From: Scytonema tolypothrichoides VB-61278
GTDB taxonomy: Bacteria > Cyanobacteriota > Cyanobacteriia > Cyanobacteriales > Nostocaceae
DNA length: 48,544 nucleotides
Direction: 5' to 3'
Assembly: GCF_000828085.3 (NCBI RefSeq)
Contig: NZ_JXCA02000024.1
Location: forward strand, 346,834-395,377
In this document: one piece after another, positions 34,874 through 48,325 of the stretch
How the letters are laid out: every line of letters starts with the position of its first letter
How positions within the stretch are numbered: the first letter of the stretch is position 1
The notes under the pieces: model-generated
Told to the model about the DNA's origin: nothing
The model's database searches: none
What the model saw: the letters and a program-made list of their open reading frames with translations, nothing else
Program-made: the position numbers and the translations under genes

Positions 34874-36571
34874 TCATGTCCCACCCCACAGTTTTTGAAA
34901 ACCTTGTGGTCGATTTTGTTGAGAATTGAGAAACTCCACAAACTGCCGAGACTCAACAGAATCATCGGGAAATAAAGTCAAAAGTTCAAAGTATCTTGGG
35001 GTTTTCTTTGGAATTGGTTTTCCGTTTGGGTCTTGGGGATTTTGGACTAACCTCACAAAAGGGTACATCCGATGCCATAATCGACCTATTCGCCCCATTT
35101 GTCCAGTCACCGATGAGCGGTAAATTGAACCATTCGGCTGTACTCGGTGAATTTCCCTTTGATAAGGTCGGTGTAACCAAAAAATAGCTTCAGATTCTTC
35201 TTTGCTATCAGCTTCTCGTCCCCAGACTTGTACTGTATCTGGATGCCATGCTTCTCGCCAAGGTGCTTTTTGAGTGGGATTGGGAGTTATTCCTTGCAGT
35301 TGCATCCAATCTTGGGCTGATTGACGTACTTTATTTATAAATGCACTCACTTGGTCTAACCTACGCACTTGGACATCTCTAAGGAGCGATCGCTCTCCCA
35401 ACCACTGCCAATGACACCCAATTAAAGGGTTGTATCCATTCTCATAATATTCTTCATAAAACAGACGATGGTCTGCCCTGCGCCAAGATTTGCCGAAACC
35501 ACCCAATACCATAGCGAACTGGGTTAAATTCGCTACTAATCTTGTCAAAGCTTCCTTATGTTCTGGATTTTGTAGTTGACTATTCAACAACCAAACGAGC
35601 TCTCCTTCAACATTGTAAGTCGGTGTAGAATAGTTACCTAACCCAAAGATTCCCATATCTAGATGAGAATTTCGGAAGCTCATACCCAGCAAGCCAACAA
35701 TTGCACCACTGTTACCTTTGATACCACCAAACAGCTGATCAACAATTTGATCAGCCATTTCTGCATTCGTTAATCCACCAAATATCCGCAGCGCATGACC
35801 GCGTATTCCAGCCCGGAAAATATTCGCCCGAAACTCTCCCGTCCCATCAATTAACTTGGCAGCTTGCCCTTGACCTTTGAGATGAGTGCCATATATCACA
35901 TTCCCAGTGTGGTTTTCTGGTTGTCCGTAACCTGCACAAACACGGCTACCAATTCCTGTAGAAAGGGCTTTTTCCCAAATCTTCCAGATTGTTTTCCACT
36001 CGGAATCTTCCAAAGCAACAGTGCTAGAAATCCCAAACTTTAGTGTCGGTTGATGCAGAGAAATCTGAATAAAAGCACCACCATCTTTGTTTCCTGTTTT
36101 AACTTGCCAATTCTGCTGCGGGTGAACGATATCGACTAAATTTTCCGTCCAAGCGGTATCGGTAGGATAACCGCCATGAAAGCGGAGAAGACCTGGTATA
36201 AAATCTTCACTAGCGAGAGACTTGCCGCAATAGCGTTGGGCTTGTTCTTCGGTACAAGCGCGACGGAATATCCCCTTCATACTACTACCAGGATAAAACG
36301 GCCAGCCTCTTGCACCAATGACCGGACGAATCACACCGTCGTCCTGTCCGCTGTTGGTAATAAATCGCCAAGTCAAAGTATACGTGCGACATCTGACTTC
36401 AGAAGGGAGTTCCGAAAGGTTGGGATACGCTTTATCAACCCATTCATCAGCCCAACGTGTGGCATCTTGTTCTTCCGCACCAGGAATAAGTCGCTGAATT
36501 TGGCAACGTCCGCCAATCTGTGCCCGAAACATCATCGGGACTTTTTTGGCAGGATCGGGAATTACAGACAT
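34874..36571 (-). CDS. Type III-B RAMP fusion (Cmr6-like plus Cmr1-like)
   Basis: The protein has 565 residues, about twice a normal RAMP. The first half has the Cas7-like WPFYPGSSMKGIFRRAC (residues 90-106) and a glycine loop GTGIGSRVCAGYGQ, as in Cmr6. From about residue 255 a second RAMP begins with GIRGHALRIFGGLTNAEMAD and QLFGGIKGNSGAIVG, the pattern of Cmr1. In Cmr complexes, Cmr1 and Cmr6 cap the end of the filament that binds the crRNA 3' part. The start ATG overlaps the cmr5 stop (TAATG), so translation is coupled. It is the last gene of the cmr operon. The assignment of each half should be confirmed by profile search. Confidence 0.75.
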   Translation of the reverse strand: MSVIPDPAKKVPMMFRAQIGGRCQIQRLIPGAEEQDATRWADEWVDKAYPNLSELPSEVRCRTYTLTWRFITNSGQDDGVIRPVIGARGWPFYPGSSMKGIFRRACTEEQAQRYCGKSLASEDFIPGLLRFHGGYPTDTAWTENLVDIVHPQQNWQVKTGNKDGGAFIQISLHQPTLKFGISSTVALEDSEWKTIWKIWEKALSTGIGSRVCAGYGQPENHTGNVIYGTHLKGQGQAAKLIDGTGEFRANIFRAGIRGHALRIFGGLTNAEMADQIVDQLFGGIKGNSGAIVGLLGMSFRNSHLDMGIFGLGNYSTPTYNVEGELVWLLNSQLQNPEHKEALTRLVANLTQFAMVLGGFGKSWRRADHRLFYEEYYENGYNPLIGCHWQWLGERSLLRDVQVRRLDQVSAFINKVRQSAQDWMQLQGITPNPTQKAPWREAWHPDTVQVWGREADSKEESEAIFWLHRPYQREIHRVQPNGSIYRSSVTGQMGRIGRLWHRMYPFVRLVQNPQDPNGKPIPKKTPRYFELLTLFPDDSVESRQFVEFLNSQQNRPQGFQKLWGGT

Positions 36572-36972
36572 TAATTGTTTCCTTTATAGCGTTGTGTCCA
36601 CCAAACCATACAGTCACAAAGTTGCGTCAAAACGGCTAAAGCCACCCTTTGCTCATTTATTTTCAATTCCCAAAGCTGGTCAGACATTGCTTGAATTTGG
36701 TTGACATTGTTGACATTAACTGCTTCATTAGGAATTAAAACTCCCGCTTGTTCCATAATTCCTACTAAAGCATCCCAGGTTTCTTTCCAATATTGAGATT
36801 TCTCTGGTTCTTTAGCTTGCAAGCGCAAATGTTCTCCCCAAAAACGTTCTAACCCATAAGCAACAGCCATTCGCATTTTATAAGACTGGTTGAGAGACTT
36901 TTCATCCCGCTTTTTGGCATCCAATACCAATTTTTGCGCTTCTCTGTCTAAATCGTAAGATTTCCAACCCAT
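36571..36972 (-). CDS. cmr5: Cmr5-type small subunit
   Basis: The protein has 133 residues and is mostly helical, with no catalytic motif, in the position and size expected for Cmr5 (Cas11 small subunit), which stacks along the backbone and contacts target RNA. I place the start at ATG 36972, ten bases after AGGAG and two bases after the cmr4 stop; an upstream frame to 37005 overlaps cmr4. Conserved-looking features include LDREAQKLVLDAKKRDEKS and an AVLTQLCDCMVWW C-terminus. Assignment rests mainly on context. Confidence 0.65.
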   Translation of the reverse strand: MGWKSYDLDREAQKLVLDAKKRDEKSLNQSYKMRMAVAYGLERFWGEHLRLQAKEPEKSQYWKETWDALVGIMEQAGVLIPNEAVNVNNVNQIQAMSDQLWELKINEQRVALAVLTQLCDCMVWWTQRYKGNN

Positions 36973-36974
36973 AA

Positions 36975-37805
36975 TTAATAATCTCCTGCTAATCTGACTC
37001 GACAACGACCAAATCCAATCGACTCCAACCCACCAAAATACAGTTCTTGGGATTTTTTATGATCGCCAAAAGGACTCCAACCTTTTTCTTTGACTGCGAC
37101 AGGAAACACTAAAATACTTGCTTCCGGTAAAGCTTCTACATTAAAAAACGCACTTCCATCTACTTTCTTTTCATCATCTGCTAGCTTGACGCGACTTTGA
37201 CGGTAAAGCGCCATATCGTGCAACATGGCAATATCATTGTTAGCAACTACCAGCAAATTATCAGGGTTTAAATCAGTATCAGTTGGTATCCAAGCAGTGA
37301 GATTGTCCTCATGTTCAATTTCGATAAAACCGAGGTTGAAAAACAGAACTCGATGGTTAGTGCCAACTTGACGACTTTGTAAAGCTTTAGGCGCTGTATA
37401 TGGTTTCGGTAAATCTGCAGCTATACCAGTTATTTGCTTGTATCGTTTGAGTAACCAAGGACAAGTCACCCAAACAATTGGTTGACCGGGGCAAAATACG
37501 GGAAGCCAGACCAAAGAAGCGTATTCAAACTTGACTAATGCTTCTGTAGTTTTGTTTTCCTCTCCTGGTATGGCTTCATGACCGTACCATTTTCTTTCCT
37601 TTTCCTTATTATCGGTATTGTTTTCTTTTTGGTGCGATCGCATATCCGCCCTAAACCTACCCCGAATCGAACTCCCAGGAATAATCCCTGTTTGGGTAAA
37701 CTGGTCGCGGAAAATCAGGTTTAAGTTACCTGTTTCTTCTCCCGCACTCGCTCCAACATGCAGAGGTGCTAAAGTTTCAATAATGCCGTATGCTTTTTGG
37801 TACAT
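36975..37805 (-). CDS. cmr4: Cmr4 (Cas7-group backbone), catalytic Asp apparently replaced
   Basis: The protein has 276 residues. It is a RAMP with LHVGASAGEETGNLNLIFRD (residues 15-34), then GIIPGSSIRGRFRADMR, and a C-terminal GLESIGFGRCRV glycine loop. Cmr4/Csm3 subunits form the filament and cut target RNA every six bases using an Asp in the V-D-L-P-I/G-I-D-N-P loop. Aligning by the I-x-(R/K)-(D/E) that follows, Leu28 falls at that Asp, so target cleavage may be lost. It starts 23 bases after cmr3. The assignment to Cmr4 follows from order and length. Confidence 0.8.
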   Translation of the reverse strand: MYQKAYGIIETLAPLHVGASAGEETGNLNLIFRDQFTQTGIIPGSSIRGRFRADMRSHQKENNTDNKEKERKWYGHEAIPGEENKTTEALVKFEYASLVWLPVFCPGQPIVWVTCPWLLKRYKQITGIAADLPKPYTAPKALQSRQVGTNHRVLFFNLGFIEIEHEDNLTAWIPTDTDLNPDNLLVVANNDIAMLHDMALYRQSRVKLADDEKKVDGSAFFNVEALPEASILVFPVAVKEKGWSPFGDHKKSQELYFGGLESIGFGRCRVRLAGDY

Positions 37806-37828
37806 TTATATAACTCCAAACTCACTCA

Positions 37829-38989
37829 TTAGTTGACTGCACTTGGTAAAGGTAGTGCTAACCCACATCCCCAGCGTTTCAGCGAGGGACCTTCCTGAGG
37901 AAACCAATCATCAGACCATTCTTGCCAAGATTTTTCTATCGACTCTTGAACGATGTAAACTGTACCTGGAGGAACTGCATAACGTCCGCGAGACAATAAT
38001 TTCGGCGGTTTTTTACGTTGTTCAAGTTCACTCGAAATAGATTGAGAATCTCCCAAGCGGTAACGGAAAGGTATGGGACGTTCTGTGATTAAAGCTTCTA
38101 GCGACCAAACAGTTTTCTCGTTGCTTTCTGGATTTTCTTGTTGATATTTTGGCTTATTACCTTTTTCCAAATAAACAGGTTCTCGTTTAGATAAGCGATT
38201 GGAACCCCAAACCGCAGGTGTAATTAATGCAAAACTGCGTCCTACATGTTGGTTGAGTAAATCTTGGACAGTCTCGGACAAGTTATGACAACGAACATCG
38301 ACCATGTGTCCCTCCCCACCAAAGCGATACCAATCATCTTTGAGTTGGGTATTGGAAAGATATACTAAACAAGCATCAGGATTTAGTTGCACAGCATTTT
38401 CTAAAAACAAACTACCACGTTCTAAATCTTGATCAACTCTGCGTTCATCTTCTTTGAGTCGGGGATGTAGGTGGGGAGTGTATTTCCAAGGTGGAGTCGC
38501 TACTGGAATTTTTTGAGATTCTTCCTGTTGTCTCAATGCAAGCTTTTCCCACTGCTGAATCGCAATACAGGTTCCTTTATCGAATTTATCAACGACAGAT
38601 GGTAGCCACTTACCTTCAATTTTTCCACTATCTTTGTACCATGTTAGCAAGTGTTCAATTCTGCTATTTTTAACTAAACAATTAAAGGGTGTGGGAACGT
38701 AAAAGTTCTCTGGGTTTTCACTCCAAGCCCAAAATGGACCGGCGAGTTGTAAATTCTTGAGGTATTTTTCATCCCCTTTATAGTATGCTGCAAATAATCC
38801 GGATAAAGCTGCAGCACTAGGAGGAAAACTACTTCCAGAACGTCCGACTAAGTTTTCTGGTGATAAGAATTTCCCCGCGCTACCGTAGAGAAAACCTAAA
38901 GGTTCGATGACTATCAAGTATTTGAATGGAGGACGAGAAGAATTATTTGATGGTGTAGAGTCTTTTTCTACTGTTTCGATTCCTGACAT
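37829..38989 (-). CDS. cmr3: Cmr3 (Cas5-group)
   Basis: The protein has 386 residues. The N-terminal IEPLGFLYGSAGKFLSPENL and the Gly/Ser/Pro-rich GRSGSSFPPSAAALSGLFAA are the characteristic start of Cmr3, the Cas5-like RAMP that binds the crRNA 5' tag and contacts Cas10. The first 22 bases overlap the 3' end of cas10, so the two are translationally coupled. A GRYAVPPGTVYIV segment and a Gly-rich C-terminus (KRWGCGLALPLPSA) complete the RAMP pattern. Length is typical. Confidence 0.82.
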   Translation of the reverse strand: MSGIETVEKDSTPSNNSSRPPFKYLIVIEPLGFLYGSAGKFLSPENLVGRSGSSFPPSAAALSGLFAAYYKGDEKYLKNLQLAGPFWAWSENPENFYVPTPFNCLVKNSRIEHLLTWYKDSGKIEGKWLPSVVDKFDKGTCIAIQQWEKLALRQQEESQKIPVATPPWKYTPHLHPRLKEDERRVDQDLERGSLFLENAVQLNPDACLVYLSNTQLKDDWYRFGGEGHMVDVRCHNLSETVQDLLNQHVGRSFALITPAVWGSNRLSKREPVYLEKGNKPKYQQENPESNEKTVWSLEALITERPIPFRYRLGDSQSISSELEQRKKPPKLLSRGRYAVPPGTVYIVQESIEKSWQEWSDDWFPQEGPSLKRWGCGLALPLPSAVN

Positions 38990-40767
38990 AGGTGAAATCC
39001 AAGTTTGGCAAGGTTTATAATCCAGTTAGTTAGAGCTTTTTTAACTTTGCTCTCATCTGTTTCCTCTGTATTCTCTTTGTAATAGCTTTTGCGATCGCCT
39101 AAAATTCCTGCCTTAGTAGTTGTCAGGTCTGCGTCACTTTCATGTAATTGCTTGTTTCTGTTTTTAATAATATCCACATGTTCGGGAAAATATATTTCAA
39201 GTAAACCTAGCGCAACATCTAAACCTCCGTCATCTGAACCTTTATCGTCAAAGACATGACGCGATTCCAGAACTGCGACATCATTATATATATGTGTCCA
39301 GTTTGGTTTCTCTTGATTGTGTTCTCTATCGCGATAACTCGACAGCAAACCAGCTTCTAAAAGCCACCAAGGACACACCCACTCTAAATGATTACCGTTG
39401 TTAAACAAAACCCGAAAAGCAATTCTATCTCTTCCATTACTTTTCGCTGATTTCTCAGCTAAACGACAATGTTGCAGTACATCGCGTTGTGGAACACCAG
39501 GACCAGCCCAGACAAAACCAACGCTGACAGTAATTTTCTTTTTTTCCTCCGACTTAATCCCCTCATTCCAAGTATCAGTTTTAAATCTAGAGAAAAAGTT
39601 CACACAATCGACGGCATTTTTTCTGTCATAAAACACACCTAAAAAATCATCGCCACCTGCGTAAACAACACGCCAATTCGCAATTGTTTTAGTTTCGGGT
39701 AACTTTTTAAAGTCATCAGCCCATTTCCTCATCTCCTTACTAAATTCATTAGTTTTCTTAGCTTCTTCATCTGTTTTTGCCAAACTTTTCAGGTATTCAG
39801 CAGCTTTATCACCATCTCCGTGAAACCAACCACTCCAGAATTTATCTTGTTTGATTTGTTCACCAGTGCGCTTCTTGTTGGTAATTCGGCTTAAGTCGGT
39901 GAATCTAGTGGGTTTTAGATCTTCTGATAACTGGTTTATTTGCTGGGCAAGATTTTTAAGAATTACCCCGTTATTTCCAAAAGCCTGTTTGAGTCGTTCA
40001 GTTAATTTATCAGCAATGACGTTATGGGTAATCAATCGCTTGATTAATTCTGGAACACTCAATTCTTCATCTGGATCGATAAAAGATTCCCCATACTCTT
40101 TGCTACGTTCGCTCATTTTCTCGTCAGGAACTTTTAACCCAACTGACTTTATGAATGATTCTCCTAATTTCTCGCTGAGTGCGTTGTAGAAAGCTGTGAC
40201 ATCTTTTTTTTCTTGCTGGTAATTGTATTGGCGAGGATCGGAAATTTGACCGAGTTTCGGGTAGGCGATCGCATCCGCACCAGAAAGAGTAGAACTCTCA
40301 CCCTGCCAATTTATTCCAGTCCAATCACGCCAATATTTTTTATTATTTAAGCGCTGACGAACATCGCTAATGCTTTCACCAGATTCTCCTTTAACCCAGA
40401 AAAATTCCCAGGCGTGCGTTGTCCATAAATCCCAATTTCTCTTCCAGTAATACTCTCCTGATACATGTTTTTCAATCCAATCACGACAGGTTTGTGTGAC
40501 GCATTCCCAAGCGGTATCAAAGGCTGATTTTGCATCCTCTTCTGTAAAATTGCCTTCAATAATAATCTGGTTGGGCATTCCCTGAGTCACGTTTGGTAAA
40601 GCTGGAGAAACAACTTTACAATGATGTTGTTCTGCAGCTTTACAAATCACCCAAGATAAGTAAGAAAGTAAATAAGAACTCCCATACAAATCTCGCAACT
40701 TCCGCGATTTCTCGATAAATCCCTGCACAGGGGCAAAAGAAATGACTGTGTAAATCTCGTTTGTCAT
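38968..40767 (-). CDS. cmr2: Cas10/Cmr2 without an HD domain
   Basis: The protein has 599 residues; Cmr2 with an HD nuclease is usually over 800. The sequence starts directly in the first Palm domain (TVISFAPVQGFIEKSRKLRD, LYGSSYLLSYLSWVI), so no HD domain is present. The second Palm has an intact GGDD (residues 371-374, VVYAGGDDFLGVFY), the site that makes cyclic oligoadenylate when target RNA is bound. Single-stranded DNA cleavage is therefore unlikely, while second-messenger synthesis is likely. The neighbouring csx3 fits that. ATG 40767 follows an AAGGAAAAGAGAA ribosome-binding region. Confidence 0.88.
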   Translation of the reverse strand: MTNEIYTVISFAPVQGFIEKSRKLRDLYGSSYLLSYLSWVICKAAEQHHCKVVSPALPNVTQGMPNQIIIEGNFTEEDAKSAFDTAWECVTQTCRDWIEKHVSGEYYWKRNWDLWTTHAWEFFWVKGESGESISDVRQRLNNKKYWRDWTGINWQGESSTLSGADAIAYPKLGQISDPRQYNYQQEKKDVTAFYNALSEKLGESFIKSVGLKVPDEKMSERSKEYGESFIDPDEELSVPELIKRLITHNVIADKLTERLKQAFGNNGVILKNLAQQINQLSEDLKPTRFTDLSRITNKKRTGEQIKQDKFWSGWFHGDGDKAAEYLKSLAKTDEEAKKTNEFSKEMRKWADDFKKLPETKTIANWRVVYAGGDDFLGVFYDRKNAVDCVNFFSRFKTDTWNEGIKSEEKKKITVSVGFVWAGPGVPQRDVLQHCRLAEKSAKSNGRDRIAFRVLFNNGNHLEWVCPWWLLEAGLLSSYRDREHNQEKPNWTHIYNDVAVLESRHVFDDKGSDDGGLDVALGLLEIYFPEHVDIIKNRNKQLHESDADLTTTKAGILGDRKSYYKENTEETDESKVKKALTNWIINLAKLGFHLCQESKQ

Positions 40768-40984: not shown

Positions 40985-41986
40985 TTAACATTTCGTCAAA
41001 TGAATCAACACATTAGCCAGTGCTTTTATCATTGGACGAGTAGATAAATCCTCTCCCCGTTCTAAATGATGAACGCTACCCGTCAGTAATGGTGCTGTTT
41101 TTAGCAGTTCGTCGGTATTCTGCTTCCAGTCGTCAGCGAGAATTACCTCGTCTTGAGTTGCATGTAACTGACTGTGAATCTTTGCAACGATTTTGAGATT
41201 TAATTTTTGACAAAACTTCTCCCACTCTGCAAACTTGGTTGTATCACCTGCAAGGATAACTGCGTGGGATGCTGGCTGCATGATTCTCTCATTTTCTGGA
41301 GAGATTTTCCCGCCAACATCAACAATGTTAATTAACTGATTGGCACTTTTAACCCATTGAGAAGCTTCTTGTGCAAATTCTGGGGTAACATCTGTTTTAT
41401 TGTTTCGCTTACAGTCTTTGGCTACTGACTGATTATTTTCACAAGCTTCTTGATGCCAAGACCCTTCACCATCAGGACAAGCGGTAATCACATAAGGATA
41501 AGGTGCGCCTAAAGTCAGCAAAATCGCTCTTTTTAAACCATCCCGCAAACATGATTTGCCTGATTGTGGTGGTCCGCATAAGACGACTTTGATAGGCGAT
41601 CGCTCTTTTTGGGATTCTTTTGTTTCAATCACATCTCCCACTTTATATTCTGCGGAACCGTGTGCAGAAGTGACTATGTAGGTTTTGTATCTGATAGCAC
41701 CTGTTGGTGTACCAATTTTACTACCTAGTTTGGGATCGAGGACGGCAACGATTTCATATAAATGCACGAGTTTGTGAGAGAGAACATAGGCAACGGGAAC
41801 AGATTGCGGTCCGTCAATTAAAATACGCTTTCCTCCAGTAATTTGCCCGGAATCAATCATTTGGTTTAAGACTTGTAGGGCATCTTTAGCAATGCGATCG
41901 CCCTGTGCAGGTAAAGTCCGATTAAACCCTACTCGCAATACCTCACCTTCTAACGTCATCTGGTAGCTGTACATATTATTCTGCAT
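40985..41986 (-). CDS. csx3: Csx3-AAA fusion (ring-nuclease domain plus P-loop ATPase)
   Basis: The protein has 333 residues. The first 120 match Csx3: ILIDGPQSVPVAYVLSHKLV, VAVLDPKL, and IVTSAHGSAEYKVGDVIE. Csx3 (Crn3) is known to degrade cyclic tetra-adenylate and so switches off type III signalling. Residues 130-330 are a P-loop ATPase (Walker A GPPQSGKS, 138-145; NIVDVGG as a probable Walker B). Csx3-AAA fusions are known in cyanobacteria; the ATPase role is unclear. AAGGAA precedes ATG 41986. It lies 217 bases upstream of cas10 on the same strand, with its own palindromic operator at 42090-42107. Confidence 0.85.
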   Translation of the reverse strand: MQNNMYSYQMTLEGEVLRVGFNRTLPAQGDRIAKDALQVLNQMIDSGQITGGKRILIDGPQSVPVAYVLSHKLVHLYEIVAVLDPKLGSKIGTPTGAIRYKTYIVTSAHGSAEYKVGDVIETKESQKERSPIKVVLCGPPQSGKSCLRDGLKRAILLTLGAPYPYVITACPDGEGSWHQEACENNQSVAKDCKRNNKTDVTPEFAQEASQWVKSANQLINIVDVGGKISPENERIMQPASHAVILAGDTTKFAEWEKFCQKLNLKIVAKIHSQLHATQDEVILADDWKQNTDELLKTAPLLTGSVHHLERGEDLSTRPMIKALANVLIHLTKC

Positions 41987-42000
41987 TGACCGTGTTCCTT

Positions 42001-42071
42001 AACAGTTATCAGTTGTCACTTATCAGTTGTCAGTTACCAGTTACCAGTTATCACTGTTCACTGTTCACTGA
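42001..42071. repeat. STRR heptamers between csx3 and its operator
   Basis: AACAGTTATCAGTTGTCACT, then TTATCAGTTGTCAGTTACCA and CTGTTCACTGTTCACTG. The array sits between the csx3 start and the palindrome at 42090. Confidence 0.8.
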
Positions 42072-42089
42072 TTTAATATGGCATGGGAG

Positions 42090-42107
42090 TGGAAAACGCC
42101 TTTTCCA
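42090..42107. promoter_or_regulatory. Palindromic operator candidate, site 1 (csx3)
   Basis: TGGAAA-ACGCCT-TTTCCA, extended by AG and CT to 8-bp half sites. It lies 104 bases upstream of the csx3 start. Downstream of it on the minus strand is CCCATGCCATATTAAATCAG, similar to the sequence after site 2. Confidence 0.65.
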
Positions 42108-42115
42108 CTTTGGTT

Positions 42116-42182
42116 GTCTCCCCCCTCTCCTTTATCCCCTCTCCTTTATAAGGAGAGGGGTGCCCGTAAGGGCGGGGTGAGG
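42116..42182. repeat. CTCTCCTTTATAAGGAGAGG repeat
   Basis: TTTATCCCCTCTCCTTTATA followed by AGGAGAGGGGTGCCCGTAAG is an interspersed palindrome of the CCCCTTATAAAGGGGA type. Two related copies lie at 44462-44582. Confidence 0.6.
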
Positions 42183-42220
42183 TATAAGTCATGAATGCAA
42201 CACGCATAACCACCTTCTAC

Positions 42221-43561
42221 TTAACAACAAAAGTAACAATCATCCGTCCGGAAATACTCAATATTAGTCTTGTGCCAATCACTACCAGGAAACTCATAAA
42301 TCCAGTCCAGACCGGAATCTACATTCAAAAAACCGCTTACCATCCCGTGAATCACACCAACACCCGTACTTGCACAGATACTGTTTAGCCAAAAAACCGC
42401 TGGATCATTCACACCTTCCAAATAACCCGCACCCGCAGCCATTTGATGAATATCAGAAGGTGCAGACTCTAAAGCCGCGAGTTGCAGATTGATAATATTA
42501 CCGCACATCAAACACCAACCACCGCCCAAAGGAGGAACAGTCACTCTGCAATACATTCGCGGTGTCTTGTCTGGTTTCACATCTATATGAGTACCCAGAC
42601 ACACCAAAGGACGCATATATTCCAACGCTAATTCTTGGGCAGTTTTTCGAGAAAGGTGATTGTCTGTTGCGACCACAATTAAATCGCAACTTGCTACTTC
42701 TTGTTTAGCTAATTCACTTTCAATTGAGGTTGGTATGGTTTTAACACAAGAACCTTCACGGTAAATTCTTTTGATCAGATGCTTGACATAATACACTTTA
42801 TGCCATTGTTGTTCTACCATTTCTTGTGTTGCACCAGGCATTCGGTTGAGATTCACTGTTTCTAATTTATCTGGGTCGATGAATACCCAATTCTTCACAC
42901 CCAAACGCCCCAATAATTCCGCAAAAATTGAACCAATCCCGCCACAACCAATTAATGCTACTTTTAGCTGATTCAGTTGTTTTTGATTCGCTTCCCCAAA
43001 GATTTTTTGGCGAGCAAACATCAAATCTGTGTTATTCATCATATCTCTATTTTCCGAGACATCAAACAAGGAATGACAGAATTTCACATTCTCAAACTTT
43101 TTTCCTTTTCTATCCCACATCCGGAATTGACAAGATTGTAAATCCTCGTCAAAGACACCCGAAATCAAACGAGGTTTTTTGGGAAAACCAGAGGCGAGAA
43201 ACCGCGCATATTCCGACTCATGGCGGTCATCAATATAAGAAAAATCAGGGATACCTTGACCTGCATGAGTATGAATGTGAACGACATCTAAACCTTCCTG
43301 AAGATGATTTTCCAGCAGATATGAATGAAAATGCTGTTTTAATACCAATCCATTCGTCGATTGATGTTCGTAGCAGTCAGAAGAAGGAACAACCCAAGTT
43401 TTAGGAATATAGCGGATTTTGTTTTTAAATACTTGATGACGTTGACAAAATAAAAAACCAATAACTTCTTCATTCAACATGCGAGACTTGAGCATAGAAT
43501 CCCGAAAATCAGACCACATTTTGGGTGGTATATGCAGAGAAACTTCAGCAGATTTGTTCAT
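42221..43561 (-). CDS. JAB-E1 fusion (Ubl-activating enzyme with N-terminal JAMM peptidase)
   Basis: The protein has 446 residues from ATG 43561; a TTG at 43621 overlapping the E2 stop (TTGA) is the alternative. The N-terminal 170 residues are a JAB/JAMM domain: NEEVIGFLF supplies the Glu, and HIHTHAGQGIPDFSYIDD the HxH...SxxD zinc ligands, with one extra residue before the Ser relative to the usual spacing. The C-terminal 250 residues are an E1/ThiF domain: VALIGCGGIGSIFAELLGRL, FIDPDKLETVNLNRM (nucleotide Asp and Arg), and paired CLMC and CYFC zinc knuckles. E1 adenylates a Ubl C-terminal Gly; JAB proteases cut conjugates or precursors. Part of the Ubl-E2-E1 operon. Confidence 0.85.
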   Translation of the reverse strand: MNKSAEVSLHIPPKMWSDFRDSMLKSRMLNEEVIGFLFCQRHQVFKNKIRYIPKTWVVPSSDCYEHQSTNGLVLKQHFHSYLLENHLQEGLDVVHIHTHAGQGIPDFSYIDDRHESEYARFLASGFPKKPRLISGVFDEDLQSCQFRMWDRKGKKFENVKFCHSLFDVSENRDMMNNTDLMFARQKIFGEANQKQLNQLKVALIGCGGIGSIFAELLGRLGVKNWVFIDPDKLETVNLNRMPGATQEMVEQQWHKVYYVKHLIKRIYREGSCVKTIPTSIESELAKQEVASCDLIVVATDNHLSRKTAQELALEYMRPLVCLGTHIDVKPDKTPRMYCRVTVPPLGGGWCLMCGNIINLQLAALESAPSDIHQMAAGAGYLEGVNDPAVFWLNSICASTGVGVIHGMVSGFLNVDSGLDWIYEFPGSDWHKTNIEYFRTDDCYFCC

Positions 43562-43617
43562 ATTTTTGAATTTTGTAAGCCCAAGGGCATATTTTGAATT
43601 TTTCAGCAGCGAGTGGA

Positions 43618-44103
43618 TCAATCTTCACTATTAATCGCGTGACGTGCTGTGACAAACAAAGTCGCAAGATTATGACCTTTCTCAGGATTATGACTAGGTC
43701 TCCAAGAATTCAACCAGACATCTTGATTAAATCCTCCCCCCAATCCCACACAATACCAATACCATCCTTGTTCACTTAGAAACGGCGCACCATAGTAACT
43801 TTGTCTGGTAAAGTGATGGTCTCCTTCTCCTACCGTATTCCACGGATAATTTAGATAGCAACCAATAGGAGGAAGTCGTGGATAATCTGGTGGCAACAAA
43901 AACAAAACATCTGTGTTAGAAACGGTAAACTTTTTGGAAGACAAAGGCATTCCTTTGAGAAGAACAGCCGTATATTTGATATCGCCAACTGTCTTGCTAC
44001 CAACAATGATTTTCTTGGCAACTTTTTCTAACAGCTTCAGTTCTTCAATAATTCTCGTACTCGGCTGAAAGCCCGATTTATCTTGGCTAATTGTAACTGT
44101 CAT
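43618..44103 (-). CDS. E2-like protein (Prok-E2 family E-type)
   Basis: The protein has 161 residues. VSNTDVLFLLPPDYPRLPPI carries the E2/UBC YPxxPP strand-turn, and later come DHHFTRQSYYGAP and GWYWYCVGLGGGFNQ. Cys118 is the likely thioester Cys and His96/His97 possible helpers. The canonical HPN is absent, as in bacterial E2 families. E2s carry an activated Ubl as a thioester and pass it to a target. AAGGTG precedes ATG 44103. It lies between the Ubl and E1 genes on the same strand. E2 assignment comes from the motif plus context. Confidence 0.75.
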   Translation of the reverse strand: MTVTISQDKSGFQPSTRIIEELKLLEKVAKKIIVGSKTVGDIKYTAVLLKGMPLSSKKFTVSNTDVLFLLPPDYPRLPPIGCYLNYPWNTVGEGDHHFTRQSYYGAPFLSEQGWYWYCVGLGGGFNQDVWLNSWRPSHNPEKGHNLATLFVTARHAINSED

Positions 44104-44142
44104 ACTTCACCTTAAAAATAGTTATCAGTTATCAAGTACCCG

Positions 44143-44183
44143 CAGTTATCAGTACTTGTTACTCATAACCGCTGATTTGTGTT
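44143..44183. repeat. 40-bp repeat shared with 47601-47642 (inverted)
   Basis: Its reverse complement, containing ACACAAATCAGCGGTTATGA and AAGTACTGATAACTG, is found almost unchanged at 47601-47642. It sits between the Ubl and E2 genes. Confidence 0.7.
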
Positions 44184-44202
44184 CACTGCGGCTGGTACTG
44201 CA

Positions 44203-44400
44203 TTACCCTTTCACAATTTTGGGCACAGTCCAAACCTTTGAACCTTCTTTGAGTGCTTCGTTATTTTTCAGAGGACGAGTACCACCAAAACCCTCTTCCA
44301 TGACATCATCCTGACCAATTTCTGGCAACTTTTTTCTTAATTCTTCAACAGTTGTACCTTCTGGTAAATCTACCAGTTTGCCATTAATAACTGCTCTCAT
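44203..44400 (-). CDS. Ubiquitin-like beta-grasp protein (65 aa)
   Basis: The sequence MRAVINGKLVDLPEGTTVEE followed by LRKKLPEIG is the beta-beta-alpha start of a beta-grasp (ThiS/MoaD/ubiquitin-like) fold. The second half is FGGTRPLKNNEALKEGSKVW. The protein ends VPKIVKG, a terminal Gly rather than GG, that an E1 could adenylate directly. With E2 and JAB-E1 genes immediately downstream it is most likely the modifier of a conjugation pathway; a sulfur carrier is the alternative. A strong GAGGAA ribosome-binding site lies six bases before ATG 44400. Confidence 0.75.
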   Translation of the reverse strand: MRAVINGKLVDLPEGTTVEELRKKLPEIGQDDVMEEGFGGTRPLKNNEALKEGSKVWTVPKIVKG

Positions 44401-44461
44401 GTAAGTTCCTCACTGTCTTCTGAAGAGTTTGATTGATAGAGATATAACGTTGTAAGTTTTA

Positions 44462-44582
44462 CCCCACCCTAACCCTCCCCTTATAAAGGGGAGAGTGTAC
44501 ACACAAGTGATCCAATTACCCAAAATTCCTGGAAAACCTCACCCTGCCCTGTCGGGCATCCCTCCCCTTATAAAGGGGAGGG
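44462..44582. repeat. Two CCCCTTATAAAGGGGA repeats, one overlapping a coding end
   Basis: CCCTCCCCTTATAAAGGGGA occurs at about 44473 and again at about 44561, the second preceded by CCCTGCCCTGTCGGGCATCC. The second forms the last 21 codons of the coiled-coil gene. Confidence 0.75.
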
Positions 44583-44983
44583 AAAATATGATGTTGTTGA
44601 ATTGAAGCTAAATTTAACTCTGTAGATTGCGTATGTTTTTGAGGCTGATTGTTGTCATATTCAGGTGGATTATTCATACTAAACACAAACCACAAGCCTG
44701 CCAAACCTATAACACTGCTAATCTTGAGGAATAGCAACTGTTTAGCTTGCTTTGATGTCACTTCCTCCAAAAAGCCAATTCTTTTATCAAGCTTTTGCAA
44801 ATAGGATTTAGCACTATTTACCTCTAGGGTTATCTTTTGCAAATCTTGTGTGTAGTCTTGTTTACTGATAGTGACCTGAGATTCTAAAGATTCACAACGT
44901 CGAATGATTTTCTCAGTCTTTTGTGTCAGTTCCTCTAACTGATGGAATTCTTGATTAATTAACTTGCCATTCACTGTGTTCAT
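44516..44983 (-). CDS. Coiled-coil protein with one transmembrane helix
   Basis: The protein has 155 residues from ATG 44983, chosen because AAGGGAG lies six bases upstream. A longer frame starts at ATG 45016, overlapping the NYN stop (TGATG), but has no ribosome-binding site. Residues 1-85 are a coiled coil (FHQLEELTQKTEKIIRRCES), followed by a TM helix (FLKISSVIGLAGLWFVFSM) and a polar tail. The last residues (FPPLYKGRDARQGRVRFSRN) are encoded by an interspersed repeat, so the natural C-terminus was probably different. Position just after the NYN gene suggests that it anchors the NYN protein to the membrane. Confidence 0.65.
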   Translation of the reverse strand: MNTVNGKLINQEFHQLEELTQKTEKIIRRCESLESQVTISKQDYTQDLQKITLEVNSAKSYLQKLDKRIGFLEEVTSKQAKQLLFLKISSVIGLAGLWFVFSMNNPPEYDNNQPQKHTQSTELNLASIQQHHIFPPLYKGRDARQGRVRFSRNFG

Positions 44984-45015
44984 GAATAACTCCCTTGTTT
45001 TTCTGACTGCATTCA

Positions 45016-45588
45016 TCAATCAAAAACATTAGAACTACCAATGCGGTGAAAATTTTGGTTAGTATCATGCTGGTCAAATTTATCAAACACCTCAGTTAAA
45101 TCCACCACGCTATTAGCTGAATTTTTTAACTCGCTTCCCAGAGATTGTTCGACTGAAGCGACTTCAACCCGCATTCCTCTTCTTCTGAGTTTTTCTGCTA
45201 AATAAGCAAAATCAGAATCTCCTGTCACCAAAACAACAATATCTGGTTTAACTTCTAAAGCTAATTCAATCGCATCCATCGCCATCACAACATCAACATT
45301 ATTCTCGTAATCGTCTCCCTTGGCTTTACCTTCTTTAGTCACAACTAAAAAACCATTACTTCTTGCCCAGTAGATAAATTTCTCTTTGCTTTTTCGCTGT
45401 TCCTCAAATCTTTCTTTAGCAGGGGGTAAACCAAGATAAATCACCATGTCTATGAGTTCTCTCCCCTCTTTTGGATCTGCTAAATAGTCGCGCACTTTAT
45501 GCCAGTTGATTTTACGATTAAAATTTTGTGCAGCCATAAAGGTGTTATCACCATCTGCAAGAATCATGACTCGACGAGGACTTACCAT
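45016..45588 (-). CDS. NYN-domain (LabA/DUF88-like, PIN-fold) protein 1
   Basis: The protein has 190 residues. The acidic site is complete: ILADGDNTFMAA (Asp12, Asp14), NNVDVVMAMDAIELAL (Asp99), and LVTGDSDFAYLAEKLRRRG (Asp124, Asp126). NYN domains are PIN-related metal-dependent RNases; LabA-type proteins also act in regulation. It is the first gene of the minus-strand Ubl-E2-E1 run. The palindromic site 45647-45664 lies 59 bases upstream of the ATG. It is the only gene here without a visible membrane segment of its own, but the next gene has one. Confidence 0.82.
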   Translation of the reverse strand: MVSPRRVMILADGDNTFMAAQNFNRKINWHKVRDYLADPKEGRELIDMVIYLGLPPAKERFEEQRKSKEKFIYWARSNGFLVVTKEGKAKGDDYENNVDVVMAMDAIELALEVKPDIVVLVTGDSDFAYLAEKLRRRGMRVEVASVEQSLGSELKNSANSVVDLTEVFDKFDQHDTNQNFHRIGSSNVFD

Positions 45589-45646
45589 GCACTCTCACCA
45601 TTTCTTTTGGGTTTGTGTTTTCTTATTTCTGATTAAAACTCATGGG

Positions 45647-45664
45647 TGGAAAGTGCTATTTCCT
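45647..45664. promoter_or_regulatory. Palindromic operator candidate, site 2 (NYN 1 / Ubl operon)
   Basis: TGGAAA-GTGCTA-TTTCCT, one base off the perfect palindrome. Directly downstream on the minus strand is CCACCCATGAGTTTTAATCAG-type sequence, like that behind site 1. It lies 59 bases from the NYN 1 start. Confidence 0.6.
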
Positions 45665-45708
45665 CTTTCTTTTGACTCACATTCCTCTCGTTACGACTGC
45701 TTTCCTCT

Positions 45709-45905
45709 CGTTCCTATGCTCTGCATAGGAATGCCTAAAAGGAGGCTCCCAATTACTCTCGTTTCCCTCGTTCTCTCGTTCCTATGCTCTGCATAGGAAT
45801 GCCTAAAAGGAGGCTCCGCCTCCCAATGATTATAATGATATTGAGGCAGAGCCTCAAGTTATGCATTTCTCTCGTTCCTCTCGTTCCTAGCCTCTGGCTA
45901 GGAAC
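45709..45905. repeat. Tandem interspersed repeats in the divergent spacer
   Basis: TCCTATGCTCTGCATAGGAA with TGCCTAAAAGGAGGCTCC occurs twice (from about 45713 and 45780), followed by TTGAGGCAGAGCCTCAAG and CTAGCCTCTGGCTAGGAACG. The same family occurs at 24882-24936. No gene is visible in 45589-46075 apart from the operators. Confidence 0.7.
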
Positions 45906-45938
45906 GAGAAATAGGATTGTTTTTGAAAATTTCACACA

Positions 45939-45968
45939 TGTAGAGACGTTGCATGCAACGTCTCTACA
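45939..45968. repeat. 30-bp perfect palindrome
   Basis: TGTAGAGACGTTGCA followed by its exact complement TGCAACGTCTCTACA, with no spacer. This is a known type of cyanobacterial interspersed palindrome. It lies 52 bases left of operator site 3. Confidence 0.7.
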
Positions 45969-46019
45969 AAGGTTACCGTTCTTGCAAATTATCTTATCTG
46001 AACGGTATTGTCCCAGAAC

Positions 46020-46037
46020 TGGAAACATCACTTTCCA
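46020..46037. promoter_or_regulatory. Palindromic operator candidate, site 3 (NYN 2)
   Basis: TGGAAA-CATCAC-TTTCCA. The 30 bases after it (CAACTCACTAAATTAAATAC) are also nearly the same as those after site 4, so the whole promoter seems duplicated. ATG 46088 is 51 bases downstream. Confidence 0.65.
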
Positions 46038-46087
46038 CCAACTCACTAAATTAAATACATGAAAGCCAAAGATTAGTGAGTCATGTT

Positions 46088-47047
46088 ATGAAACTTACTC
46101 AATTATTCCCAATCACATTAGTTCTATCTATGGGGTGCATCTTGACTGGAACGACTAGCAAACAACCTCTACTGCGAGTGTTGGGTGAAATCACTGCCTT
46201 GGGAGCTATTTCTAGAGAAATACTAGTCAAACAGCACCAATTAGATGCTAATAACCAAAAGCAATTAACCCTATTAACTAAAGAGAATACCTGCTTGCAA
46301 ACTAAACTCTCTGATGCACAGTGTGAATTCAATAAACTTGAGAAAAAAGTCAAAACTCAAGATACCTGTCAGCGTCTTTATCTTTCTAAAATCAATAAAT
46401 TGCAGCATCAACAAAAGGTCATTTTAGGAAATGTCGCTCAATTGCAAGAGAAGTTAGCTAAGAAAACTACTGCTAAATCTGAAAATCATCAACAAGTTTT
46501 TAAAAAACAATCTGTGAAATCCCTTCCCGAACCTCAAATATCGGTAACTCGTGTTTATATTGATGGCAATAATTTAAGTTTTGCTCTCGATAGTTTGCAG
46601 ATTGAGGTTGATTATAACGCTTTGCGGGTAGAACTTTCTCGAAATGCAACTGTTACTACTTTTAAATATTACACTGGTGTTCATTCACCGATGAGCGAAG
46701 GACAAAGACATTTTCTGAGTTATTTAGAACATTTGCGTTATGAAGTTATTGGACTTCCTATTTTACCTCGACCTGATAGCAAGAATGTCAAAACTGTTGG
46801 TGATGATGTCAAAATTGCTGTTGATATGCTGGGAGAAGTGAAACAGCAAGATAGAGTGATTCTTGTGAGTGGTGATGGTGATTTTATTCCTGCTATTGAG
46901 GAAATTCAACGACGTGGTGCTCAAGTCACTGTTATTGCCAAGAAAACAATGCTGAGTGAGCAACTTTGCCAAGTGGCTGATGATGTTGTTTTGTTAGATG
47001 ATATTCAATATGAAATCGCTAAATATAGAAAGTTTAATGTGGCTTAA
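46088..47047 (+). CDS. NYN-domain protein 2 with coiled coil and hydrophobic N-terminus
   Basis: The protein has 319 residues from ATG 46088; a GTG at 46076 adds four. The first 25 residues are hydrophobic (LFPITLVLSMGCILTG) and may be a membrane anchor, though a cytoplasmic NYN domain would then need an unusual topology. About residues 45-130 form a coiled coil. The NYN domain follows: VYIDGNNLSFALDSL, VGDDVKIAVDML, and ILVSGDGDFIPAIEEIQRRG, with all acidic residues present. It combines in one chain what NYN 1 and its neighbour have as two. Its promoter has operator site 3. Confidence 0.8.
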   Translation: MKLTQLFPITLVLSMGCILTGTTSKQPLLRVLGEITALGAISREILVKQHQLDANNQKQLTLLTKENTCLQTKLSDAQCEFNKLEKKVKTQDTCQRLYLSKINKLQHQQKVILGNVAQLQEKLAKKTTAKSENHQQVFKKQSVKSLPEPQISVTRVYIDGNNLSFALDSLQIEVDYNALRVELSRNATVTTFKYYTGVHSPMSEGQRHFLSYLEHLRYEVIGLPILPRPDSKNVKTVGDDVKIAVDMLGEVKQQDRVILVSGDGDFIPAIEEIQRRGAQVTVIAKKTMLSEQLCQVADDVVLLDDIQYEIAKYRKFNVA

Positions 47048-47114
47048 CTCATTCTGAGTAGTGTTGCAAAAATGTCTGGAAAATAAAAAAGAGGAGCAAA
47101 GGATGATTTTTCAC

Positions 47115-47320
47115 TCAACCCTCTTGCTCCCAATCCTCAATATGCAAGCCTTCCACTCGACTAAATTCACGAGTGTTATGGGTAACTAATATGACATTAT
47201 TTGCTAAGGCGATCGCCACAATTTGCAAATCATAAAGACCAATTGACGTACCCATAGCCGCTCATTCTGCTCGAATTCTGCCAGCTATTTTTGCAGCTTC
47301 TAGGTTGAGGAGTATTATAG
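47115..47320 (-). pseudogene. VapC (PIN toxin) remnant
   Basis: The frame reads AAKIAGRIRAE, an in-frame TGA, AAMGTSIGLYDLQIVAIA, then LANNVILVTHNTREFSRVEG and LHIEDWEQEG. This is the C-terminal half of a VapC toxin (DxQIxAIAL...VTxNxxEF). The N-terminal half with the first catalytic Asp is missing and a stop interrupts the rest, so it is inactive. Confidence 0.75.
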
Positions 47321-47464
47321 AAAATTGACTAAAAAACCATTGCAAGCCTTTCTTATATCTGTTAGTGTCATATGCTCAGCGATTAGCTCAGCCGCTCGCG
47401 CTTCTATTTTATCTCGACGTGCGCGTGGAAGTTTTTCCATTATTTCATTAAGCTTCTTCGCCAT
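47315..47464 (-). pseudogene. Truncated HTH-type antitoxin (HigA-like) remnant
   Basis: ATG 47464 opens 49 codons: MAKKLNEIMEKLPRARRDKI, EARAAELIAEHMTLTDIRKA, then CNGFLVNFL and a stop. The start matches XRE-type antitoxins of HigBA modules, which normally continue with an HTH of about 60 residues. The end overlaps the VapC remnant, so two unrelated TA genes have been joined by deletion. Confidence 0.6.
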
Positions 47465-47540
47465 CGCCAAATTTTCCTTTTTCTTTTAGTTGACTAATGC
47501 AGTGGCTTGGATATACAAACTAAGTCCACTTGCAAATACC

Positions 47541-47558
47541 TGGAAATGTCGTTTTCCA
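47541..47558. promoter_or_regulatory. Palindromic operator candidate, site 4 (membrane protein)
   Basis: TGGAAA-TGTCGT-TTTCCA, followed by CTAACTCATTAAATTAAATA, nearly the same as behind site 3. The gene at 47711 starts 153 bases downstream; an STRR array fills most of that distance. Confidence 0.65.
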
Positions 47559-47585
47559 CTAACTCATTAAATTAAATATATCAAC

Positions 47586-47671
47586 TTAACAGTAAACGGT
47601 AAACACAAATCAGCGGTTATGAGTAATAAGTACTGATAACTGATAACTGATAACTGGTAACTGATAACTGA
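47586..47671. repeat. STRR array inserted between operator and gene
   Basis: AACAGTAAACGGTAAACACA and the 40-bp unit shared with 44143-44183, then GATAACTGATAACTGATAAC heptamers. Confidence 0.8.
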
Positions 47672-47710
47672 ACCGGTCAAATTTAGTGAATATTCAACAG
47701 TTAGAAACTC

Positions 47711-48325
47711 ATGAAAAAAGAACCAATGCAAACAAACCAAGTTTTCTCAGGACTAATCGCTGCGGAGAAAGCAGTATATGAAGAGTTAGTCTCTTTGGTA
47801 GGTGAAGATGCAAAGAAAGCTGTAGAAACTATTAGACAACACTCTTATATTTCTGCTACCTGTGGCGTTCTTGTGATAGCTCCAGGTGTCGATATATTAG
47901 CTTTTGTAGCTAACACTTGGACAATGTATGCCCGAATAAATAGCGCACTTGGCATTTCACTGAGCAAAAACATTTTAAAATCAGTTGCATCAGCAATAGG
48001 AACAAATGTATTGTCAATTATTCCAGGAATGATACTGGGATCAGTTGGAGGTTCTATTTTAAAAATATTCCCAGTTTTGGGAACAGCTGGAGGAATGGCA
48101 GTCACAGGTGCTACTTTCTATGCTATTTCGACTGTAATGGGTTGGACTTACTTGAAAGCAATCATGTTTCTTGTTTCCTCAAATGCGCCCATTAATGAAA
48201 ATAATTTAAAAGTTGCGACAAATAAAGTTGCTAAAGACAAAGATTTTATCAGGGAAATATACAATTCAGCAAAATCTGATTTTAAGGAAGAAAAGCACGA
48301 TTCTGACCGTGCTAGTGATAGCTAA
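47711..48325 (+). CDS. Small hydrophobic membrane protein (DUF697-like)
   Basis: The protein has 204 residues. The middle (residues 45-160) is hydrophobic and Gly-rich: CGVLVIAPGVDILAFVANTW, SLSKNILKSVASAIGTNVLS, GSVGGSILKIFPVLGTAGGM and FYAISTVMGWTYLKAI. This resembles DUF697/YcjF C-terminal domains. The N-terminal 40 and C-terminal 40 residues are charged helices. It has no signal peptide and no nuclease motif. It sits between operator site 4 and the CRISPR array, so it may be a membrane effector of the CRISPR system; this is inference from position and regulation only. Confidence 0.65.
   Translation: MKKEPMQTNQVFSGLIAAEKAVYEELVSLVGEDAKKAVETIRQHSYISATCGVLVIAPGVDILAFVANTWTMYARINSALGISLSKNILKSVASAIGTNVLSIIPGMILGSVGGSILKIFPVLGTAGGMAVTGATFYAISTVMGWTYLKAIMFLVSSNAPINENNLKVATNKVAKDKDFIREIYNSAKSDFKEEKHDSDRASDS

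Follow-up and report, generated by a model that had tools for sequence, protein, structure and literature searches.

An 18-bp palindrome, TGGAAA-N6-TTTCC(A/T), recurs in front of type III CRISPR (clustered regularly interspaced short palindromic repeats) genes of the cyanobacterium Scytonema tolypothrichoides VB-61278 and is very probably, judging from sequence comparison, the operator of a TIGR03985-family regulator, a protein with a winged helix-turn-helix (wHTH) and a WYL domain. It was noticed at four promoters in a 48,544-nt stretch of contig NZ_JXCA02000024.1 (positions 346,834 to 395,377; C7:346834-395377 in the genome numbering used here), hereafter the window. The original prediction held that the units behind these promoters (NYN nuclease genes, a cassette with a ubiquitin-like protein (Ubl), csx3 with the Cmr genes, and a membrane-protein gene) act as one regulon, a reading that is now supported by the genome scan, by the orthologous promoters and by a WYL gene with a site of its own. 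The regulon appears wider than first proposed, as it would also take in a WYL-HD-RT-Cas1-Cas2 operon (RT, reverse transcriptase) and unlinked type III-D and III-A operons, so that the RNA-targeting CRISPR defence of this cyanobacterium is probably under one regulator as a whole. The full explanation, in which the palindrome is the TIGR03985 WYL operator in at least seven promoters and most likely serves activation in the manner of the Caulobacter regulator DriD, is considered likely.

According to this explanation, a dimer of the TIGR03985 protein would bind the palindrome and control at least seven promoters, i.e., those of csx3-Cmr (type III-B), NYN1-coiled-coil-Ubl-E2-E1, NYN2, the membrane protein, WYL-HD-RT-Cas1-Cas2, III-D and III-A, and the regulator would control its own synthesis through the site before its operon. 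The dimer would straddle the -35 position at promoters without a usable -35 box and recruit RNA polymerase as DriD does, and a ligand made during infection would switch on the WYL domain. Single-stranded DNA, described as a ligand of DriD and PafBC, is our guess for this ligand by analogy. We infer that the TIGR03985 protein binds these sites, and in which manner, from the observed sites, genes, conservation and promoter geometry together with the predicted fold. A more tentative proposal, with slightly less in its favor than against it, is that type III immunity in these cyanobacteria has a single master switch, a WYL activator that senses infection, works unlinked loci in concert and amplifies itself. 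If it were true, the switch would turn on the III-B, III-D and III-A complexes with their CARF effectors, the Csx3 off-switch, RT-Cas1-Cas2, two NYN RNases and the Ubl cassette, and this ubiquitin-like conjugation cassette would then function as a component of type III immunity.

Palindrome copies in the window and the genome

Exact matches to the palindrome, each with a six-base spacer, were found at 42090-42107, 45647-45664, 46020-46037 and 47541-47558, just where they had been reported, and a scan of the whole window returned these four and no further copy, in line with the impression gained on first reading. The half sites of the first copy, given as 8 bp in the original prediction, are in fact 9 bp long (AGTGGAAAA/TTTTCCACT). 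The pattern yields seven strand-matches in the window vs. 0.03 expected from 100 dinucleotide shuffles. When up to two mismatches were allowed, eight sites were counted vs. 4.7 expected (6 of the 100 shuffles reach eight), and at up to three mismatches the count equals the background (38 vs. 41.9).

Within the genome (7,893,269 bases), the perfect 18-bp palindrome TGGAAA-N6-TTTCCA occurs four times, and all copies fall between C7:388923 and C7:402469, a span of 13.5 kb, where they precede csx3, NYN2, the membrane-protein gene and a WYL gene beyond the right edge of the window. The 17-mer TGGAAAN6TTTCC has 12 distinct sites, five of them in the 13.5-kb stretch and seven scattered, while its reversed-sequence control gives seven strand-matches genome-wide. 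The genome-wide scan that had been suggested as a check thus finds no more matches outside the cluster than the reversed control does. The fifth member of the stretch, C7:402452-402469 (L017:9453-9470), lies outside the window. From a wider set of sites, the family consensus of the operator was derived as TGGAAnnnGCnnnTTCCA, with two 5-bp half sites whose starts are 13 bp apart.

In the shorter form TGGAA-N8-TTCCA, the motif has 16 sites in the Scytonema genome vs. 10 for the control. Ten of the 16 are chance-like (nine inside open reading frames (ORFs), one intergenic without an ORF of at least 80 aa starting within 200 nt), and six lie in promoters, namely those of csx3, NYN2, the membrane-protein gene and the WYL gene and two on contig C6. 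A III-D operon (Cas10, Csm3, Csx10, Csm2, CARF-RelE, Csm3, PD-DExK) lies 114 nt downstream of the first of the latter (C6:188239), and a III-A operon (Csm1, Csm2, Csm3, Csm4, Csm5, Cas6, CARF-HEPN) 49 nt downstream of the second (C6:199531); both sites have a candidate -10 element matching in 5/6 positions at 9 nt. The NYN1 site, which ends in T, brings the number of promoters to seven. The III-D (L186:8372-16083) and III-A (L201:1662-11051) operons are on the same strand of G000:C6 at about 188-208 kb, with a Csx21 gene just before the III-A operator.

Requiring in addition the inner GC of the motif gave 34 sites in 11 genomes vs. 2 for the control. Nineteen of these loci were looked into: ten precede csx3, WYL, HD, Cas10 or membrane-protein/NYN1 genes, six are inside other ORFs (L167, L168, L169, L176, L178, L185) and three have no identified neighbor (L171, L173, L175). 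A defined operator of this kind turns a gene neighborhood into a regulon, indicates which genes act together (including the Ubl cassette and the NYN nucleases) and finds unlinked members. It also leads to a testable claim, namely a common switch for type III immunity, spacer acquisition and the Csx3 off-switch.

The WYL gene and its operator in relatives

A WYL or HTH regulator gene had been anticipated beyond the right edge of the window, and one is present there: the site at C7:402452-402469 sits 47 nt upstream of a 505-aa WYL gene on the minus strand, 7 kb past the edge. This gene is followed by HD, RT, Cas1 and Cas2 genes, which places the regulator among CRISPR-cas genes. The protein matches the NCBIfam model TIGR03985 ("CRISPR-associated") with 259.1 bits over residues 246-503 (curated cut-off 60) and the PADLOC model HTH-WYL over residues 5-503 (E = 1.7e-119), and two Pfam matches stay below the gathering threshold (WYL, 21.4 vs. 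21.8 bits; WCX, 19.9 vs. 23.9). An AlphaFold model of an 88% identical Brasilonema ortholog (L049; mean predicted local distance difference test score (pLDDT) 82.5, predicted template modeling score (pTM) 0.51) was compared with solved structures by Foldseek. All 28 PDB chains at E ≤ 0.001 are DriD, PafBC, BrxR, CapW or 6oaw ("a CRISPR Cas-related protein"), with DriD at the top. The global template modeling scores (TM-scores) against full-length DriD chains are low (0.28-0.44), i.e., the fold matches by domains, and on the basis of the model the TIGR03985 protein is assigned the wHTH-WYL family fold. A profile search of solved-structure sequences with an alignment of the family (A1) gave nothing firm; it listed unrelated chains, the GntR-type FadR (over positions 132-203, with E = 0.023 and up) and PafC (E = 0.91). 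The HD protein of the WYL operon (L017:6844-7443; also L131:9287-9853) is a single domain related to the hydrolase part of RelA/SpoT.

Of 386 genomes sampled across the phylum, 51 have TIGR03985 above the cut-off. For the nearer relatives, 80 named loci (1,367,415 bases), which were picked by their WYL genes, were scanned. They hold 85 copies of TGGAA-N8-TTCCA, and in 58 of the 80 loci a copy lies between -350 and +60 of the WYL start. For the 29 remaining arm permutations the totals are 0-8, none near the WYL start, and spacers of 0-7 and 9-20 give totals of 1-11, with 0-1 near the WYL start. Thirty-eight of the 85 sites stand between divergent csx3 and WYL genes, and 72, in these WYL-picked loci, precede a homolog of a Scytonema island gene by at most 500 nt. 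Of the 13 others, six fall within ORFs of 120 aa or longer (L051, L061, L073, L078, L084:9608, L127:16222) and seven precede genes for a membrane CARF protein (L084:6308), CARF7/APE2256 (L095), Csx3 (L111), Csm1/Cas10 (L127:7233), a Cas8a-like protein (L116), a PH-domain protein (L079) and an 81-aa ORF without a family (L058). On an Allocoleopsis plasmid, csx3 and WYL have a site between them, Cas10 is preceded by one, and another (L136:5626), located downstream of HD, precedes a 71-aa gene.

Four of the 10 loci that lack a site have a recognition helix of the LLAKTR type, as does 1 of the 11 loci with a one-mismatch site; the 40 variants listed for the 59 perfect-site loci (16 of these loci being unlisted) do not include it. 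This distribution fits a protein-DNA pair in what is a small sample. Among WYL proteins with a GQLA-type N-terminus, L019, L029 and L035 have no site and L027 has one. Two further arrangements were observed in these loci: a Peptidase_M48 gene of Cyanomargarita (L130:14097-15128), a possible regulon member, follows a perfect site at a distance of about 80 nt, and at L055:16958-17005 the divergent genes NYN2 and NYN1 are separated by two operators 30 nt apart, each of which keeps the usual distance to one of the genes.

Arm conservation of 0.96-1.00 could not be used as evidence because the sequences had been picked by the motif, and in its place up to 400 nt upstream of orthologous genes were searched in 10 related genomes, counting a site at up to one mismatch. 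The one-regulon idea would have lost ground if orthologs lacked the palindrome, but sites were found at csx3 in 7/7 cases (six perfect, one with a mismatch), at NYN1 in 6/6 (four perfect and two with a mismatch, both in Brasilonema and with the same A at the first base), at NYN2 in 3/3 (all perfect), at WYL in 10/10 (nine perfect, one with a mismatch) and at the membrane-protein gene in 1/2 (perfect in Nostoc MG11). As a control, HD genes inside the WYL operon have a site in 0 of 7 cases at the same threshold. The WYL operon of Calothrix PCC 7716 lacks HD; an HD gene (66% identical) is found about 447 kb from it and is preceded by a perfect site that agrees with the WYL site at each of the 18 bases. 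A single site is common to NYN1 (226-275 nt away) and the divergent NYN2 or membrane-protein gene in Cyanomargarita and Nostoc MG11.

Gene content was compared as well. A csx3 gene was found in 48 of the 386 genomes, and 44 of these have TIGR03985 above cut-off. Within 700 nt upstream of csx3, 19 of 29 loci have a perfect site, five a one-mismatch site and five none (for L155, L156, L157, L161 and L162, the position of the csx3 start comes from an extrapolation spanning more than 100 residues). The same was done for cas10 genes over up to 1,400 nt, accepting a perfect site or one with a single mismatch and a -10 element. III-D Cas10 genes have a site in 6 of 21 WYL-bearing and 2 of 6 WYL-less genomes (one of the 28 genomes, G300, was left out as its match starts at residue 150), and III-A Csm1 genes in 11 of 18 and 0 of 3, respectively. 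A csx3 gene lies in between or upstream at 12 of these 19 sites.

Promoter geometry and mode of action

The position of the palindrome relative to the promoter was analyzed in 95 non-redundant oriented sites with predicted start sites. The motif TAnnnT starts exactly 8 nt past the palindrome in 62 of them, and no other offset between 0 and 39 exceeds 13. A -10 hexamer matching TATAAT in at least four of six positions is present at 8-9 nt in 71/95 sites vs. 91/855 (11%) at background offsets; the site therefore spans about -38 to -21 and would stand in for the -35 box. In 57 of the 71, the best -35 hexamer at a spacing of 16-18 matches in two positions or fewer (about half in random sequence).

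This layout resembles that of DriD, a WYL homodimer activator whose wHTH-WYL chains gave the best Foldseek matches to the predicted model. The DriD site is described as a pseudo-palindrome over the -35 at a constant distance from the -10, with a poor -35, placed at its own gene between divergent units, and the 95-site set has the palindrome over the -35, the fixed -10 distance and the poor -35. DriD is reported to control DNA-damage genes, whereas the genes here belong to CRISPR type III, adaptation and Ubl systems, and its chains (324-326 residues vs. 505 aa) and site (20 bp vs. 18 bp) differ in length. In mycobacteria, the 19-bp palindrome of the WYL activator SiwR spans the -10 to -35 region (PMC10693628), and PafBC uses a -26 motif through sigma adaptation (PMC11804915); as described there, both are alike in having the site around the -35 to -10 region, and they differ in their regulons and, for PafBC, in forming a heterodimer. 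A few WYL cases thus give a layout rule by which the present geometry would be of the activator type, and by analogy we somewhat favor the view that the TIGR03985 regulator is an activator.

With the same operator and the same protein, the regulator could instead act by repression and silence the type III genes until its WYL domain binds a ligand, which we regard as possible though less probable. CapW of CBASS (cyclic oligonucleotide-based antiphage signaling system) and BrxR of BREX (bacteriophage exclusion), which are among the fold matches of the Brasilonema model, are anti-phage WYL regulators that bind palindromes or inverted repeats and are described as repressors, and a dimer over about -38 to -21 could block the polymerase. 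Their sites, as described, overlap the -10 (CapW, PMC9122588) or consist of repeats downstream of it (BrxR, PMC9122601), whereas the operator here ends 8-9 nt before the -10 in 71/95 sites, and their reported targets are in the local defense locus and not in a multi-system regulon. DriD is the better fold match, and the -35 is worse than in random sequence, so that unaided promoters should be weak and leave little to repress. A more distinct idea is that the palindrome belongs to another dimeric host regulator, of which TIGR03985 is just one target. We consider it unlikely: although about 10 of the 80 WYL genes have no site at all and three of four genomes with csx3 and without detectable TIGR03985 keep one, the motif is at background level outside CRISPR genes in the Scytonema genome, which makes a host-wide regulator improbable, site and WYL gene occur together in 58/80 loci and on the Allocoleopsis plasmid, and TIGR03985 is found in 44/48 csx3-bearing genomes vs. 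51/386 overall. It is highly improbable that the copies are leader RNA hairpins, repeat elements or duplicated promoters without a regulatory role. Sites 3 and 4 are alike over 45 nt at 82%, so one promoter may stem from the other, and further repeats lie nearby, but the remaining sites share no more than the operator and the -10, which speaks against a repeat element. An RNA hairpin was rejected because the site is upstream of the -10, hence outside the RNA, and because one arm sequence and one spacing (8) are enriched and pairing as such is not (permuted-arm palindromes are unenriched). Moreover, a single site can serve two divergent genes.

Several observations weigh against TIGR03985-dependent activation as the general explanation. 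The fixed -10 spacing reflects in part shared ancestry. A perfect TGGAA-N8-TTCCA near the WYL start was seen in 13 of the 30 best loci of the phylum-wide sample, and 22 of the 80 loci lack a perfect site (11 of these have one with a single mismatch), as does the membrane-protein ortholog of Calothrix NIES-3974, which has none. Among the genomes without detectable TIGR03985 that keep a site, G385 combines a perfect site with an intact csx3, and the 1.1 kb opposite shows no WYL-like sequence; the others are G091 (csx3 fragment, perfect site) and G231 (short csx3, one-mismatch site). The fourth genome, G300, has a partial csx3 match and no site. The retained sites may reflect recent WYL loss or another regulator. 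The sites of III-D and III-A cas10 genes do not clearly track WYL presence either (17/39 genomes with WYL, 2/9 without), and a strict dependence of the site on the WYL gene was discarded, as the csx3 and cas10 genes of TIGR03985-less genomes give no clean result. Finally, three WYL proteins of the Synechocystis CRISPR plasmid pSYSA, Sll7009, Sll7062 and Sll7078, are named repressors (PMC6789036). Sll7009, the subject of Hein et al. 2013, appears in citing papers as a negative regulator. Sll7078 is a TIGR03985 member (PMC7283877), and its listing among repressors speaks against activation, although no such palindrome was found upstream of its gene (34% identity). The one TIGR03985 gene detected on pSYSA adjoins csx3 and III-B genes, and a one-mismatch site is present elsewhere in that locus (L135:10786).

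WYL regulators of defense loci and their palindromes are already known. A ligand-dependent control of defense systems by WYL transcription factors was proposed by Makarova et al. 2014, where WYL proteins were also the most abundant neighbors of CARF genes (PMC4012209), and a 2024 type III survey deferred WYL proteins to a later study (PMC11229360). Searches of the open-licence literature turned up neither an operator nor a list of targets for the TIGR03985 family linked to CRISPR. As far as that literature shows, the proposed TIGR03985-family operator, the multi-operon and multi-system regulon, the inclusion of NYN and Ubl genes and the activator-type geometry appear to be new.

Genes and repeats of the CRISPR island

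All four palindromes of the window have a candidate -10 element 9 nt downstream, which was assigned from the sequence and the position rule of the 95 sites. Palindrome 1 (42090..42107; TGGAAAACGCCTTTTCCA, 9-bp half sites with flanks) is the putative operator of the csx3-Cmr operon on the minus strand, with the candidate -10 CATATT at 42075..42080. The first gene, csx3-AAA (40985..41986; PADLOC Csx3-AAA, E = 4.8e-114), is followed on the same strand by the type III-B effector genes (34874..40767), which were recognized by the Pfam families Cas10-Cmr2_palm2, Cmr2_N, Cas_Cmr3 and RAMPs. They encode Cas10/Cmr2 (38968-40767), Cmr3 (37829-38989), a RAMP protein that is probably Cmr4 (36975-37805) and two proteins without a Pfam match, of 144 aa (36571-37005) and 565 aa (34874-36571).

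Palindrome 2 (45647..45664; AGGAAATAGCACTTTCCA on the gene strand, with TTTCCT at its 3' end) and the candidate -10 TTTAAT (45632..45637) precede the NYN1/Ubl operon (42221..45588), which is also on the minus strand. It consists of NYN1 (45016-45588; Pfam NYN), a coiled-coil protein (44516-45019), a 65-aa Ubl (44206-44400; Pfam ThiS-like, below cut-off), an E2-like protein (43618-44103; Prok-E2_E) and a ThiF/E1-like protein (42221-43567; ThiF), and the NYN1, Ubl, E2 and E1 genes are grouped together in six loci of relatives as well (L049, L052, L054, L055, L056, L129). On the plus strand, palindrome 3 (46020..46037; TGGAAACATCACTTTCCA) and the candidate -10 TAAATT (46047..46052) stand before NYN2 (46076..47047), a LabA-like NYN nuclease (PADLOC NYN PDLC01154, E = 1.4e-169). 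Palindrome 4 (47541..47558; TGGAAATGTCGTTTTCCA), likewise with TAAATT as candidate -10 (47568..47573), would be the operator of a plus-strand gene for a 204-aa protein (47711..48325) that looks membrane-bound by eye and has a weak Pfam match to DUF697 (E = 0.035, below cut-off).

A 45-nt repeat that itself contains an inverted repeat is present in three copies, two identical and the third 69% alike, at 45705-45922 between the NYN1 and NYN2 promoters, and short runs of a AGTTATCAGT-like repeat occur near three of the units (41998-42061, 44114-44142 and 47585-47680). Between NYN2 and the membrane-protein gene, positions 47116-47258 translate into the remnant of a protein C-terminus, which we take to resemble that of a PIN-domain toxin.

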